Virus record (IMG/VR): IMGVR_UViG_3300029448_000571
Coordinates: 1 to 20,400 of that record
Reading direction: 5' to 3' (one strand)
DNA from: a virus
DNA: 20,400 bases
Shown here: positions 13,772 to 20,400 of the stretch, piece after piece
How positions within the stretch are numbered: position 1 is the stretch's first letter
Layout: every line of letters starts with the position of its first letter
Translations under genes and position numbers: made by a program
Notes under the pieces: model-generated
What the model was told of the DNA's origin: nothing
Databases searched by the model: none
The model's input: only the letters and a program-made list of their open reading frames with translations

Positions 13772-14794
13772 TTAGTATAAGCTTGTAGCCGCACATGGAA
13801 CAACCATAGTAGCGAAATCGTTACTATTGAAGTTACATCTAGCCATCTCATATATGATGGACGCAGATAAACTCAGCTTATTACCTCTATCAACAGTTTC
13901 CTCATGCCATTGATGGTCACCACCAAAAGCAACAACCCCAGCTTGAGCACCTAAGAATAGGTTCAAGTTAGCGTTAACGCTGTTAACAGATGACACATGG
14001 ATTTGGTCGTGTTCATGAATGACCACGCCGTCCCACATACCTAACGCACCACTGAATAGTGGGTTCTCAGGTCCTCTAGGCATAGCATACTGCTGTGCAC
14101 TCAACCATGTAGAGTTCTGCTTCAATACATGAGCAGACTCGGGATGGATAATCATCACGAAGTGGTCTTTTCCATCAACTCTAATCGGTCTGAACTTAGG
14201 GTTCTTAAGCAAAGCTCTCGCTTTAGCCGCACTGATAAGCTCTGGTGTTATCACATCAGCCGTTGCCATAGCAGAAGCCGGTGTAGTAGTTAGTATGCTA
14301 CCACCATCATTCCATATAGTGTTCGTGTTATTACCAAACGCATATGTTGATATGTTACCAGTTGAGCCAGCTACAGATGTAGCACCCGTCAAGACATCAA
14401 TCATGTCTTTTTCCATAGTCTCAGCGAACCAGATTTTAAGTGAATCCAGAGCCTCTTTACGGAAATTAACTAATGTCTTCTTATCAGCCATTTTACCACT
14501 AGATAATACACCTTGTCTTAATTGGTCAAGGGTTACCTCTTGGTAGTATGTATCAAGAGCTACTTCGTTACCAGCAAGCGTGTTGTCGCCAGTAATTCCA
14601 CCGCCCTCTATCTTCATTTTAAGTCCGAAGCGGACCTTATGTCCTTTTGCACCTTTAAGGTCTGTCAGTACTTGTATAGCAGAATCAGAACCCCCAAAAA
14701 AACGAGAGAAATATGTATCATTCTTCGCTTGGGTGAACAATTCTTTACGCCATCGAGTTACCTCTAAACCGGCATTGAATAATGTTTCAGCCAT
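13772..14794 (-). CDS. Major capsid protein, N4-gp56 family
   Basis: 340 residues. The N-terminal part has the signature of the N4 gp56-type coat protein: KGHKVRFGLKMKIEGGGI (about 50-67), GDNTLAGNEVALDTYYQEV and DQLRQGV, then a long helix, KEALDSLKIWFAETMEKDM, typical of the HK97-fold spine. Later segments, FVMIIHPESAHVLK and NPLFSGALGMWDGVVIHEHD (about 213-261), match the conserved core of the family. Length is slightly below many members. AAAGGAGATAAATA precedes the ATG. The first 11 residues resemble those of the 131-aa protein upstream of the portal. The gene is followed by a GC-rich hairpin and the adaptor genes. Confidence 0.92.
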   Translation of the reverse strand: MAETLFNAGLEVTRWRKELFTQAKNDTYFSRFFGGSDSAIQVLTDLKGAKGHKVRFGLKMKIEGGGITGDNTLAGNEVALDTYYQEVTLDQLRQGVLSSGKMADKKTLVNFRKEALDSLKIWFAETMEKDMIDVLTGATSVAGSTGNISTYAFGNNTNTIWNDGGSILTTTPASAMATADVITPELISAAKARALLKNPKFRPIRVDGKDHFVMIIHPESAHVLKQNSTWLSAQQYAMPRGPENPLFSGALGMWDGVVIHEHDQIHVSSVNSVNANLNLFLGAQAGVVAFGGDHQWHEETVDRGNKLSLSASIIYEMARCNFNSNDFATMVVPCAATSLY

Positions 14795-16207: not shown

Positions 16208-18130
16208 TTATCTCCTAGGTTTGCGTTTTTGTCCGCCCTGACCTTCTTGCTCTCCAGCCGCTTGTTGCATCATCATCGCTTCCTCAGCAGAACTTAAATC
16301 TGCTAACATATCTTGCTTGTTAGGAAGCCTTGACATCTCAACTATACTCTTGACAATCGTCATCACTGCCGCTGGAGGCATTGCCTGAGCATACTGTAAT
16401 AATTCTGTTGCTGATTGTACAGCCGCTATCCTAGCTGTTGGTGATGTCTCACCCTCATCGATAGCTATATCATACTTGATATCATAAAAACTTTCTATTA
16501 ACTGAGGTATCGCTTGGATTGTATCATCCGGATTATCTCTGTTAACCACTCCTACAATTTTCTTAATTTTATTTGGGTCATAAAACTGCTGTATATTAGA
16601 TAGTATCTGATTTATAACAAGTTTCTTGCCCGTGTTCAAGTTATCAAAAAGCTCTTGAAGACTTGTGACACCTTGCTGTATCCTTTGCTGTGCCGCTACT
16701 CCACTCTCTCTTGAGCCGGTTGGTATCCCGATGAGGGAATCATTAATCCCGCTAATTTCTTTAACATCGTTTTCGGCTGATTGTTCAAGCCACTGGTAGT
16801 GACCCAGTATTCCAATATAATTAGCGTTAGATGGCATAACCTTGTCTTTAATAGAGCCTCGTACTCCAACCCATGTTCCGGGTGAGGATAGGTTTTGTAT
16901 CTGTTCGGCATCCACGGCACTTTGCTGATAGAAACCACCTCCTTTCGGTGCTCTGTTAAGAATGTCCGTAAACTGACTGTGCCTCTTATTTTTCTCATCT
17001 TGGGGGTCGATAAGATTTTTAACAATTCCAAAGTTTTCAATTTTATCTCCAGTGTCTTCTAAGTAAGCGTATATAGGTACAATAGGGAACTGCTGATGGT
17101 TATAAGGTAGAATTTCTTCTCTTCTAAGTAACATATTTCCAGAAAAAACATCTTGATAAACCTTACACTCCGGAGTTTTTACAATAGAAAACATTTCTTG
17201 AGGGGTCTGACCTTGTTGCATCTGCATCTGAGAAGCTTGCTGATTAAGTTGTACAACTTTTTCATCAGCTTCTCTTTTGTTTTTAGCTGGTATCATGTTA
17301 CCATCTATTCCCATTATATACCACTGATACTCTACTTTTTTGGTGTATAACTCTATAATTTTAGCACGCCTTCTCTCGTTATCTACATAAGCAGTCCAAT
17401 CATTTATATTTGGATTTGTTGGGTAGTCATTAACAAACTCAACCGCTCTTGTTTTATATCTAGGGTCTGGAGAGAAGTTTAACATCTTATGCATCTCGTC
17501 TGTAGACTTATTCATAAATAAATCTGGGTATAACATTTTTAGTTGTGGGGTGCTAAGCCATTTGAATCTAGCTAGATATCTAGAATCAGATAAATCAAAT
17601 TCTTTTCCATCTGGGTCAGAGTAAACATTATAAACAGATTCGTTTTTAACCTTATTACTCATCGTTAACTCACCCATCTGTTGCTCAACACTTACATCAA
17701 TCCATGCTCTCCCGCATGTTATAGCTGTTTTAAACGCTCTGGAGAACACTTTTTGAAGTTTTTTATTATAATCCTCGTAGTATAATAGATGTGTAGCGAG
17801 TTTAGCGAGTTCTTCATCCTCAACACCTATAGGAATAGCCCTAAATCCGCTTCTTATCTGTTGCTCAACTCCAGAAACAACGTTAACCTTACTAAAAACA
17901 AGGTTAAAAACTAGAGGAGGTCTACCTTCTCCCTCTAATTTTAAGCGTTCTTCATCTGTCCATTGTTTGCTACCAGTATAATAACCGGCGTATTGCCTAA
18001 ATTTATCTATAAGATTACGGTTACCATGTTCTAAAAAACCAAAAACCTCAAGATTTCTGCTTAACCTCCCAGAAGAAGTGCTTAACGCAGTATTTTTAAA
18101 ACCATCTCTATATGTATCTTTTGATGACAT
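16208..18130 (-). CDS. Portal protein, P22-like family
   Basis: 640 residues. This is the dodecameric ring at the capsid vertex through which DNA is packaged and ejected. Seen: an N-terminal helical part, then GRPPLVFNLV and VSGVEQQIRSGFRAIPIG (residues 69-102), the hallmark of P22-type portals, followed by AFKTAITCGRAWIDV (132-146), which matches the conserved clip/wing-entry segment. The central region has DPQDEKNKRHSQFTDILNRAPKGGG and SGINDSLIGIPTG, also typical of this family. The C-terminus is helical, Met/Gln-rich and ends in KRKPRR, a plausible barrel or tail region. Length is within the usual range (about 600-750). The terminal Arg-Arg codons AGG AGA double as the ribosome site of the scaffold gene. 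It is followed directly by scaffold and capsid genes, as expected. Confidence 0.92.
   Translation of the reverse strand: MSSKDTYRDGFKNTALSTSSGRLSRNLEVFGFLEHGNRNLIDKFRQYAGYYTGSKQWTDEERLKLEGEGRPPLVFNLVFSKVNVVSGVEQQIRSGFRAIPIGVEDEELAKLATHLLYYEDYNKKLQKVFSRAFKTAITCGRAWIDVSVEQQMGELTMSNKVKNESVYNVYSDPDGKEFDLSDSRYLARFKWLSTPQLKMLYPDLFMNKSTDEMHKMLNFSPDPRYKTRAVEFVNDYPTNPNINDWTAYVDNERRRAKIIELYTKKVEYQWYIMGIDGNMIPAKNKREADEKVVQLNQQASQMQMQQGQTPQEMFSIVKTPECKVYQDVFSGNMLLRREEILPYNHQQFPIVPIYAYLEDTGDKIENFGIVKNLIDPQDEKNKRHSQFTDILNRAPKGGGFYQQSAVDAEQIQNLSSPGTWVGVRGSIKDKVMPSNANYIGILGHYQWLEQSAENDVKEISGINDSLIGIPTGSRESGVAAQQRIQQGVTSLQELFDNLNTGKKLVINQILSNIQQFYDPNKIKKIVGVVNRDNPDDTIQAIPQLIESFYDIKYDIAIDEGETSPTARIAAVQSATELLQYAQAMPPAAVMTIVKSIVEMSRLPNKQDMLADLSSAEEAMMMQQAAGEQEGQGGQKRKPRR
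16211..16217 (-). promoter_or_regulatory. Scaffold ribosome binding site embedded in portal stop region
   Basis: TAGGAGA is formed by the last portal codons, just before TAA. It is six bases from the scaffold ATG and couples the two genes. Confidence 0.7.
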
Positions 18131-18310
18131 CTATCTATATATCTCCTTGTATATCTTAACGCAAATATACACAAATGTTGCTATTCCAACCAAGACTCTT
18201 ACGGCTACTGGTAAAATTTCCATCCAAGTTACCGTTAGACCTCCTACACTAGCTGTTAATGTTTTTATGCTATCTTCCACGTTTTTTGTCTGAAACAAAA
18301 GGAACTCCAT
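18131..18310 (-). CDS. Small single-span membrane protein, possible holin-like
   Basis: 59 residues (starts MEFLLFQTKNVEDSIKTLTA). A hydrophilic N-terminal half is followed by a hydrophobic stretch at about 32-54 (ILPVAVRVLVGIATFVYICV) and a short charged tail, KIYKEIYR. One Arg (38) lies near the start of the span. The TAG stop abuts the portal ATG, and the portal ribosome site lies inside this ORF. A small one-span protein with charged ends among late genes could be a holin or other lysis-accessory protein, but no endolysin is in the window and the size alone is weak evidence. It starts inside the 40-aa ORF in another frame with only a weak AAGAAG upstream. It fills an otherwise empty 260-base interval, which supports it as a real gene. 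Confidence 0.55.
   Translation of the reverse strand: MEFLLFQTKNVEDSIKTLTASVGGLTVTWMEILPVAVRVLVGIATFVYICVKIYKEIYR
18142..18148 (-). promoter_or_regulatory. Ribosome binding site of portal gene inside the 59-aa ORF
   Basis: AAGGAGATATAT lies 12 bases before the portal ATG and within the last codons of the upstream ORF. The spacing is longer than usual, but the sequence resembles the strong AAGGAGATAT leader known from T7 gene 10. It supports the portal start at 18130. Confidence 0.7.
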
Positions 18311-18392
18311 ACTTATGCTTCTTTTTGCCGTTTAATGTTTTTTTCTTTTTTTTATAGCCCCAAGATGGCTGACTCATTAATCCTAGATTCAT
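18270..18392 (-). CDS. 40-aa Lys-rich ORF, function unknown
   Basis: The ATG lies one base after the TAA of the 106-aa gene, the same spacing as between the two genes before it, with GGGGGAA as a partial ribosome site. The product starts MNLGLMSQPSWGYKKKKK and ends GVPFVSDKKRGR, so 15 of 40 residues are Lys, Arg or His. It contains runs of eight and seven A, including an in-frame A AAA AAG, but the -1 frame stops after about ten codons and offers no longer product. It overlaps the start of the 59-aa ORF by 41 bases. It is too short to judge by composition alone; position and spacing are the main support. Confidence 0.5.
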   Translation of the reverse strand: MNLGLMSQPSWGYKKKKKTLNGKKKHKYGVPFVSDKKRGR

Positions 18393-18393
18393 A

Positions 18394-18714
18394 TTATTCC
18401 CCCATACCTGAATATTTTTTAGAAAATTTAGAGAAGCGTCTCACAGAACCACCATGGCGTTTCTTTTTTACTTCTTCCTTGTGTTTGGTTGTGTATTCCT
18501 TTCCTCTCCAAGTAAAAGTGCTATCACTTCCTTTTTCTTTTCTTTTCTTCTTAAAAGCTTCACCAAACGACTTTTTATCTGTTACTCTTTGCCTTACCTT
18601 TTTTTTCCTTACCTCCCACCTCTCGGCGTCTTCAGCAGCTTTTTTTTCAGCAGCTAATCTATCTGCTTTATAGCGATACCACCTACCCTCAAAATATCTA
18701 CTTTCTTTTGGCAT
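18394..18714 (-). CDS. Basic protein with FGEAF...FxWxGKxYxT motif and C-terminal tag
   Basis: 106 residues. Residues about 1-45 form a charged helix after RYFEGRWYRY. Residues about 49-75 read SFGEAFKKKRKEKGSDSTF then TWRGKEYTT, a short motif (SFxxAF...FxWxGKxYxT) that I recall at the ends of virion proteins in several phage groups; its function is not known to me. The C-terminus, GGSVRRFSKFSKKYSGMGE, is the third copy of the tag. The ATG lies one base after the upstream stop, and GGGAGGA inside the upstream tag codons is its ribosome site. It is probably a virion-associated or assembly protein given the neighbours, terminase on one side and portal on the other. The first motif, RYFEGRWYRY, loosely echoes the later FTWRGKEYTT. 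Confidence 0.85.
   Translation of the reverse strand: MPKESRYFEGRWYRYKADRLAAEKKAAEDAERWEVRKKKVRQRVTDKKSFGEAFKKKRKEKGSDSTFTWRGKEYTTKHKEEVKKKRHGGSVRRFSKFSKKYSGMGE
18397..18453 (-). repeat. C-terminal tag, copy 3 (106-aa protein)
   Basis: Nineteen codons for GGSVRRFSKFSKKYSGMGE before TAA. Its relation to the copy at 19143-19199 is protein-level conservation with many synonymous changes. The GGGG run at its end is the only ribosome-site candidate for the 40-aa ORF that follows. Confidence 0.85.
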
Positions 18715-18715
18715 A

Positions 18716-19126
18716 TTATCCTCCCATTCCCGGATATTTTTTAGAGTAACTTCTCACAGAACCAGAGCCATAAGAAATTGAACCGCCTTTACGCATTTTT
18801 GAGCTTAGCTTCTTTCTTCTTGTTTTTTTTGGCTTGCCTTTGTTTCTCTCTTTTCTTTTTCTTTCTTTTATCTCGTATTCTTTCTCTGCTCTTTTAACAG
18901 CTTCGTCTGCGGGATTTCCTTGTGGAGAAACTGGTTTAACACCTTTCTTTGCTTTTCTAGCACCATACATAGCGGGTCTAGCACCTTTCTTACTTAGATG
19001 TGCTTCATACATCTCGTCTGCCATTTTTCGCCTATATTTCCCTAAGCTGTCTAGCGTACCCTCCTTAGCTGCTTTATCTGTTTTTGCTTTAAATTTCCGT
19101 GCGGAATCTATATCTCGTCTTGCCAT
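18716..19126 (-). CDS. Highly basic helical protein with C-terminal tag, function unknown
   Basis: 136 residues, not recognised. It is predicted helical and extremely rich in Lys and Arg (for example KERKRKERNKGKPKKTRRKK near residues 87-106), with a central segment around ARPAMYGARKAKKGVKP. The C-terminus, RKGGSISYGSGSVRSYSKKYPGMGG, is an expanded version of the tag in the neighbouring genes, with a short SYGSG insertion. A strong AAGGAGGG overlaps the previous stop and precedes the ATG. Only 1-13 bases separate it from its neighbours, so the three tagged genes form one translational block. The charge suggests DNA or RNA binding, perhaps a protein packaged with the genome; that is inference. 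No membrane segment or enzyme motif is present. Confidence 0.82.
   Translation of the reverse strand: MARRDIDSARKFKAKTDKAAKEGTLDSLGKYRRKMADEMYEAHLSKKGARPAMYGARKAKKGVKPVSPQGNPADEAVKRAEKEYEIKERKRKERNKGKPKKTRRKKLSSKMRKGGSISYGSGSVRSYSKKYPGMGG
18719..18787 (-). repeat. C-terminal tag, copy 2 (136-aa protein)
   Basis: Twenty-three codons ending SVRSYSKKYPGMGG before TAA. It matches the other two tags in GGS, SVR, SKKY and GMG, with an inserted SYGSG-type spacer. The last codons (GGA ATG GGA GGA TAA) also supply the Shine-Dalgarno site of the next gene. Confidence 0.8.
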
Positions 19127-19139
19127 AATACTGCCCTCC

Positions 19140-19535
19140 TTACTCCCCTACTCCGGGATATTTTTTTGAATACTTAGTGAAACGCCTAACTGAGCCACCC
19201 ATCCTATACGTAGACTCATGTCTTTTCTTTTTTTTACCAGTTTTAGGGTTTTTAGCTACATTAGTTGTACCACCCTTCCGAAGAGGTTTAAGTTTTGCTT
19301 GAGCTTCTGGGTCGTTGTTTATAGCCCTAACAAGTGGACCATGTTTCTTCATAGACTCCTTATTAACTATAAACTCACCGCCCTCAGCCTCTATAGGAGC
19401 CCCATTCTTAACTTTTATGGGTATCCCCCCCTTCTCATGGGATGGACCCATAAGCTTACCACCTCTGTTATACTTTTTTTTATCATCTTTCATTTTAACC
19501 GGCTCCATCCCTTTATTAAACATTGTCTCAGCCAT
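19140..19535 (-). CDS. Basic protein with GPSHExGGI...EAEGGE motif and C-terminal tag
   Basis: 131 residues. Three parts are visible. Residues 1-11 (MAETMFNKGME) resemble the first 11 residues of the major capsid protein (MAETLFNAGLE). Residues about 26-75 contain GPSHEKGGIPI, then PIEAEGGEFIVNKES and a helical LVRAINNDPEA; I recall this GGI/EAEGGE pattern from many phage virion-associated proteins of unknown function. The Lys/Arg-rich tail ends in GGSVRRFTKYSKKYPGVGE, a tag repeated in the next two genes. The ATG comes one base after the upstream stop and has no clear Shine-Dalgarno site, so translation is probably coupled to the preceding gene. A virion or assembly role is likely from location, but the molecular function is unknown. 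Confidence 0.85.
   Translation of the reverse strand: MAETMFNKGMEPVKMKDDKKKYNRGGKLMGPSHEKGGIPIKVKNGAPIEAEGGEFIVNKESMKKHGPLVRAINNDPEAQAKLKPLRKGGTTNVAKNPKTGKKKKRHESTYRMGGSVRRFTKYSKKYPGVGE
19143..19199 (-). repeat. C-terminal tag, copy 1 (131-aa protein)
   Basis: Nineteen codons for GGSVRRFTKYSKKYPGVGE immediately before the TAA. Fifteen of 19 residues match the copy at 18397-18453. Of the 19 codons, nine differ synonymously, six are identical and four change the residue, so the peptide rather than the DNA has been conserved. Confidence 0.85.
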
Positions 19536-19782: not shown

Positions 19783-20400
19783 CTAAACTGTTTTCCAGTT
19801 TGATGTTTGTTGTTGTTTCTTCAGTAACCACTGAGGTATATGAGGCTTTGGGCTTATCGGTTTCGATATCTCCATATAGTTTATGAAGTATCTCAACGCA
19901 TCCATAGCGTGGTCATCTTTTTTCAGCGGTTTCTCAGGGGCATTTTTTATCCCCTCCTTATAATCCTCCCATCTATAGTTCTGAATTTCGTCTACAAATG
20001 GAATCATACAATCCTTGTCTAATACAAAAAATTTTGGTAGACCCGTTCTGTCATCTATACTCATATAGTTAGCAACCCTATCAATACCGCCTCCAACATC
20101 GTTGTCAGCCCGTTCCCAATTAATTCCGAACTCCTCGTATTGCCCTCCGATGGTTACATCTGTGCTCATACCACCCCTAACATGCCATATAGATGGGTCA
20201 GCTATCCATAGTGATATATGGTCATTCCCGACTTTTTTCCAAATTTGTTCAGCGTGGTGGTCAATCCACTCATCCGCTTGGTAGTGCATATCATACAGAA
20301 AGATGTTATTCTCATCATCCACAGCGAAGAACAAAGCCGCCGTTGGATTTCTGTGCCCGTGGTCGAGTACCACATACCTATTCCACCAATCTGGGATGTC
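19783..20400 (-). CDS. terL: Terminase large subunit, C-terminal nuclease domain (5' end outside window)
   Basis: The reading frame is open to the right edge, so the ATPase half lies outside; 205 residues are visible. It is the RNase H-like nuclease domain that cuts concatemeric phage DNA during packaging at the portal. Seen: a first acidic motif, VVLDHGHRNPTAA (Asp13 of the fragment), followed by the strand-rich FFAVDDENNIFLYDMHY; a second acid in LWIADPS (Asp68); and the classic closing motif KKDDHAMDALRYFI (Asp163 to Asp167). These three sites match the acidic catalytic triad of TerL nucleases. A GTG at 20373 could be mistaken for a start, but the codons upstream of it, encoding DWWNRY, clearly continue the protein. 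The TAG stop overlaps the AGGAG of the next gene. No small terminase gene is visible in the window. Confidence 0.95.
   Translation of the reverse strand, partial: DIPDWWNRYVVLDHGHRNPTAALFFAVDDENNIFLYDMHYQADEWIDHHAEQIWKKVGNDHISLWIADPSIWHVRGGMSTDVTIGGQYEEFGINWERADNDVGGGIDRVANYMSIDDRTGLPKFFVLDKDCMIPFVDEIQNYRWEDYKEGIKNAPEKPLKKDDHAMDALRYFINYMEISKPISPKPHIPQWLLKKQQQTSNWKTV

Follow-up and report, generated by a model that had tools for sequence, protein, structure and literature searches.

The stretch of DNA analysed here (the window) is a 20.4-kb fragment of a viral contig, with a head gene cluster on its minus strand. Along this strand, a partial gene for the terminase large subunit (19786..20400) is followed by a gene for a 78-aa basic protein and then by genes for three basic proteins of 131, 136 and 106 aa, which end in a common peptide, the tag. 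Downstream of the 106-aa gene lie a short basic 40-aa open reading frame (ORF), overlapping a 59-aa holin-like ORF, and the gene for a P22-type portal (16208..18130, minus strand; PF16510, E 9.5e-89); the terminase and the portal thus border the tagged cluster upstream and downstream. Past the portal come a 301-aa acidic protein, here regarded as the scaffold, then a 154-aa protein and the major capsid protein (PF13252), and after these the genes that we take to be tail genes. The 40-aa ORF (MNLGLMSQPSWGYKKKKK.., 18270-18392, minus strand) is very basic and untagged; it begins 1 base beyond the 106-aa stop codon and is read in a different frame from the holin-like ORF. A scan for promoters and terminators gave nothing beyond the level of shuffled sequences. 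A terminase search of bacterial and archaeal genomes returned no confirmed match, and therefore no host or prophage is proposed.

The 131-aa protein (19140..19535, minus strand), defined by its ORF and by homologs, consists of a capsid-arm-like N-terminus, a GPSH..EGGEFIVNKES..INND module, a basic linker and the first copy of the tag (GGSVRRFTKYSKKYPGVGE, 19143..19199). The 136-aa ORF (18716..19126, minus strand) ends in the second copy (SGSVRSYSKKYPGMGG, 18719..18766). The 106-aa protein (18394..18714, minus strand), recognized by its ORF and by homologous modules, contains an SFGEAF..TFTWRGKEYTTK module and ends in the third copy (GGSVRRFSKFSKKYSGMGE, 18397..18453). All copies are read from the minus strand. 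The tag core, [K]-[YF]-P-G-[MV]-G-x, lies at the extreme C-terminus. The three window proteins have pI values of 10.2-10.5, and all tagged proteins measured are lysine-rich, with pI 10.1-11.2.

The original prediction held that these proteins, unrelated over most of their length, share one C-terminal peptide, and the ends are exactly as it quoted them. A search of the window with the 19-residue peptide matched at these three sites only. The C-terminal similarity, measured on short alignments anchored by hand at the stop codon, exceeded that of whole-protein shuffles with z = 5.8, 9.0 and 4.3 (0, 0 and 1 per 20,000 shuffles attained the observed score), and shuffling of the last 30 residues attained it 0, 0 and 6 times per 20,000, which excludes chance for the three window copies. 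The bodies show no detectable relationship: no pairwise BLASTP comparison of the tag-less sequences gave a match better than E = 2.8. Comparison of copies 1 and 3 reproduced the predicted codon counts exactly, with 9 synonymous, 6 identical and 4 changed codons. Only 2.1 synonymous differences would be expected under random substitution (P = 5e-5), in agreement with the proposal that selection acts on the peptide and that the copies do not stem from recent DNA duplication. The tag is real, and what is conserved is the protein sequence.

When the 131- and 106-aa proteins were searched individually against viral contigs, no relatives were found; these were gathered instead via capsid, portal and terminase searches, giving an uncultured group whose portals are 56-65% identical. 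At least five further contig lineages in this group encode small proteins that end in [YF]PG[MV]G. The tag is present in L031 (GGSARRFAKYSKKYQGMGE and GGAVSYSSGSTKGMSKKYPGMGE), L039 (GGSVSYSSGSVKGFSKDYPGMGG, GGLISKYPGMGG and GGKLSKNYPGMGD), L005 (SYPGMGS, KYPGMGS and KFPGMGS), L004 (KFPGMG and KYPGVGCD), L035 and L141, on one to three small proteins each, in the terminase-portal interval. The homologs of the 131-aa protein in this group (131 aa in L031, 143 aa in L004, 112 aa in both L035 and L141, and 102 aa in L039) all carry it at the C-terminus, and the tail of the 136-aa protein, RKGGSISYGSGSVRSYSKKYPGMGG, is common to the 204-aa protein of L039, the 153-aa protein of L035 and the 133-aa protein of L031. 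When ~200 kb of family contigs were filtered for [PSQANI]G[MV]G at protein C-termini, the only matches were ORFs of the terminase-portal interval. The counting patterns for the motifs were composed after examples had been seen; the counts thus show how the motifs are distributed and do not serve as independent discovery tests. The evidence comes mostly from uncultured contigs, with ~7 independent tagged genomes including the window.

Within the group, small basic genes in the interval lack the tag in L006, L040, L008 and L034, which makes it an accessory feature; an end in L038 reads NGMGA. Copies are more alike within than between genomes (permutation p = 0.024), a pattern that either a shared partner co-evolving with the tags or duplication of ends would produce. 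Neither the tag peptides nor the 136-aa protein had matches in cultured phages, and the small proteins read in Paracoccus phage KLEP18-1, Ochrobactrum phage POI1126, Microcystis phage Mwe-JY25 and Pelagibacter phage HTVC104P, chosen by distant capsid, portal or terminase similarity, carry no PGMG tag. The literature search found no paper mentioning KYPGMG or DUF6321. One 479-aa protein (L035:5155-6594) has the tag-like end AGMGE, so tagged proteins are not necessarily small. In L031, a 10-codon ORF (13922-13954), MSKYPGMGNG, is nearly the tag alone; it overlaps both the tagged 133-aa gene, at its stop, and the following ORF, at its start. The coding sequence of a DUF6321-like protein in the same contig (13948-14258) changes frame at A AAA AAG, following MAETKK; the A run may be a -1 frameshift site or may contain an assembly error.

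At its other end, the 131-aa protein carries a peptide (MAETMFNKGMEPVK, 19494..19535, minus strand) that resembles the N-terminal arm of the major capsid protein (MAETLFNAGLEVTR, 14753..14794, minus strand; 7/12 identical, z 6.2). In five of the five genomes tested, a small basic protein in the terminase-portal interval begins with a copy of the N-terminal arm of the phage's own coat protein (window 19494-19535, L004:2541-2699, L005:5933-6064, L006:6479-6619 and L008:1920-2135), with 6-8 of 12 residues identical and z values of 5.0-7.3, exceeding all 173 background ORFs. Synonymous differences separate arm copy and coat arm. The arm consensus is MAExxxNxxLEVS, and in most cases a basic GDKKK-like stretch comes next. 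The copied arm links these proteins with the coat or with whatever the coat arm contacts. The 131-aa and coat proteins were modelled with AlphaFold at pLDDT 49 and 31, respectively, a quality too low for interpretation.

The main new result is that the same body modules bear different shared motifs in other phages. The module of the 131-aa protein, GPSHxxGGIPIEVEGGEFIVNKES (EGGE), is widespread, occurring in dozens of contigs and also as part of tape-measure-like proteins. Among distinct small EGGE-module proteins, six end in PGMG, every one from this phage group, and 20 others carry the motif P-x-S-D-A-R-x-R, C-terminal in 18 of them. The module of the 106-aa protein matches a 292-aa protein of L114 and gp63 of Roseobacter phage CRP-13. 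L114 has both modules side by side, its EGGE protein ending in PLSDARKRRK and the adjoining SFGKAF protein in WPSSDSRKR, that is, with one common end unlike the tag of the window. A third body, phrog_25774 (MSLYxNINKRKKAG..), makes up the tagged 133-aa protein of L031 (E = 5e-19, residues 1-40), where it ends in PGMGE; it ends in DARKRSKKS in L071, L076, L080 and L097, and in an untagged lysine run (KKKK) in Syn5 gp59, P60, HTVC019P and HTVC119P. The 131- and 106-aa proteins are therefore not orphans, having homologous modules in other phages. Since related bodies have other ends elsewhere, the label follows the phage and not the body, and the tag behaves as a phage-group-specific add-on.

The P-x-S-D-A-R-x-R motif forms a second label, shared in other uncultured phages by small basic proteins that are unrelated but encoded side by side (L093:4306-5323, L114:3453-4686, L122:327-1333, L127:2430-3471, L112:461-1245 and L071/L076/L097). 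Two C-terminal SDAR-type proteins are present in 7 of the 27 contigs surveyed, against an expectation near zero. This motif is mainly C-terminal but N-terminal or internal in some proteins, and hence not strictly a C-terminal tag.

In bacteriophage T4 the capsid-targeting sequence of internal proteins is cleaved off by the prohead protease; no protease-like gene was recognized between portal and coat in the window, where the genome is incomplete. T4 internal proteins are very diverse, and the capsid-targeting sequence, their sole conserved part, encapsidates them into the scaffolding core (PMC3012670). This system, likewise one conserved short peptide on unrelated small proteins, encoded here in the head cluster, is in our judgement the closest working analogy. 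The T4 sequence is, however, N-terminal, whereas the tag is C-terminal and unrelated in sequence, as the original prediction had stated; the N-terminal shared peptide found here is capsid-arm-like and distinct from the tag. In Family 1 encapsulins, several unrelated cargo proteins, whose genes lie next to one for an HK97-type shell, each bear a short C-terminal targeting peptide (PMC8346489); they resemble the present proteins in the position of the peptide, the variety of its carriers and the nearness of the shell gene. Yet the encapsulin peptide is of the TVGSL type and directs enzyme cargo to bacterial nanocompartments, whereas here it is KYPGMG in a tailed phage with a PF13252 capsid. Because position or sequence differs, we do not claim membership in either class. 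The phrog_25774, DUF6321 and EGGE small proteins of marine phages share bodies or modules with the tagged proteins but have SDARxR-type ends or no tag. Some DUF6582-like (PF20223) sequences, including proteins of other phages in L011, L012, L021 and L025, end in ..AKYPGMGK or ..RKYPGMGS. The tagged proteins had no matches to the DUF6582 Pfam profile and lack its ALPxSDF/YPI part, the likeness being confined to at most the last eight residues, and the resemblance to the tag core is probably a coincidence.

These observations suggest, with about even chances in our estimate, that the tag is a short C-terminal address peptide which, in this podovirus-like group, docks unrelated lysine-rich small proteins on one partner, most likely a head component, leading to their co-packaging. 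Appended to several unrelated bodies, the tag would allow all of them to dock on the same partner, presumably one per phage. With less certainty, this partner may belong to the assembling head (the coat interior, the portal or the acidic scaffold), and the basic proteins may enter the virion as internal head proteins, packaged together with the DNA. The location of the genes in the head cluster, from terminase to portal, and the capsid-arm copy on the 131-aa protein make such head targeting plausible. Of the sorting or docking signal originally proposed, the shared protein-level add-on on unrelated bodies is thus upheld, and targeting to the head is plausible.

We considered whether the shared end could have arisen by other means. 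Triplication of one gene, followed by divergence of the bodies past recognition, would fit the adjacency of the genes and the small size and basic nature of all three products. Body homology is not detectable, however, and the 131- and 106-aa bodies have separate outside homologs (EGGE and SFGxAF modules), which refutes the idea for this pair and leaves it scarcely credible for the set. The end might instead be read at the level of nucleic acid. In several copies TATG, ATG or TAATG comes right after the stop, GGGAGG or GGGAGA lies at ribosome-binding distance, and the GMG-[GE] codons include the Shine-Dalgarno site of the next gene, as they would if these codons were kept for translational coupling. 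Yet 6 of 17 copies (window 131, L039 120, L035 112, L141 112, L004 143 and L005 147) retain PG[MV]G despite a separate site or a longer gap downstream, and the upstream SVRRF.KYSKKY is left unexplained. The C-rich proline codons reflect a genome-wide habit, since 49 of 56 P-G codon pairs in the window and family contigs use CCC or CCG. Coupling is thus largely refuted and very improbable. A DNA-level signal in the CCG/CCC-GGA codons of the tag was dropped for proline on account of the same bias; a mild GGA excess in the tag remains (P = 0.01). CCT and CCA are strongly avoided in Pro-Gly pairs, though CCT is the commonest proline codon overall. Neither embedded ribosome-binding sites nor codon context accounts for the tag.

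Two further readings operate on the peptide itself. If a 3′ gene end had recombined onto neighbouring genes and persisted without a selected function, copies would be more alike within than between genomes, as they are, and the longer tail GGSxSYxSGSV, common to several proteins across genomes, suggests that ends may move as units. Such hitch-hiking is nevertheless rather improbable, given that synonymous codon differences outnumber non-synonymous ones by 9 to 4 when copies 1 and 3 are compared, and that the core is retained in lineages with portals only about 60-65% identical, a distance at which tails free of selection should have eroded. The main rival is a motif for cohesion or nucleic-acid binding, by which the basic proteins would associate mutually or with DNA or RNA without a dedicated head receptor, and which the same data would fit. 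Both the high pI of the lysine-rich tagged proteins and the composition of the tag, which has basic and aromatic residues (K, R, Y and F) as well as GG turns, are consistent with it. We nonetheless consider it unlikely, because the conserved PGMG core is non-basic, the tag is absent from very basic bodies in Syn5, P60 and Pelagibacter phages, and the exchange of motifs across phages fits a phage-varying partner better than DNA.

Returning to the address peptide, a broader and more tentative proposal is that tailed phages, largely marine, share a pool of small basic modules that are loaded into heads by interchangeable group-specific labels (PGMG here, SDARxR elsewhere), with some modules copying the capsid arm. 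Such an address code would travel with the phage rather than the cargo. The swap of PGMG for SDAR on the same two body modules makes this idea directly testable. Small basic proteins of unknown function are encoded in the head clusters of many marine phages, including those of Pelagibacter and Synechococcus. A readable label for a common destination would allow sets of internal proteins to be predicted from sequence, and would also supply a short, transplantable loading peptide.
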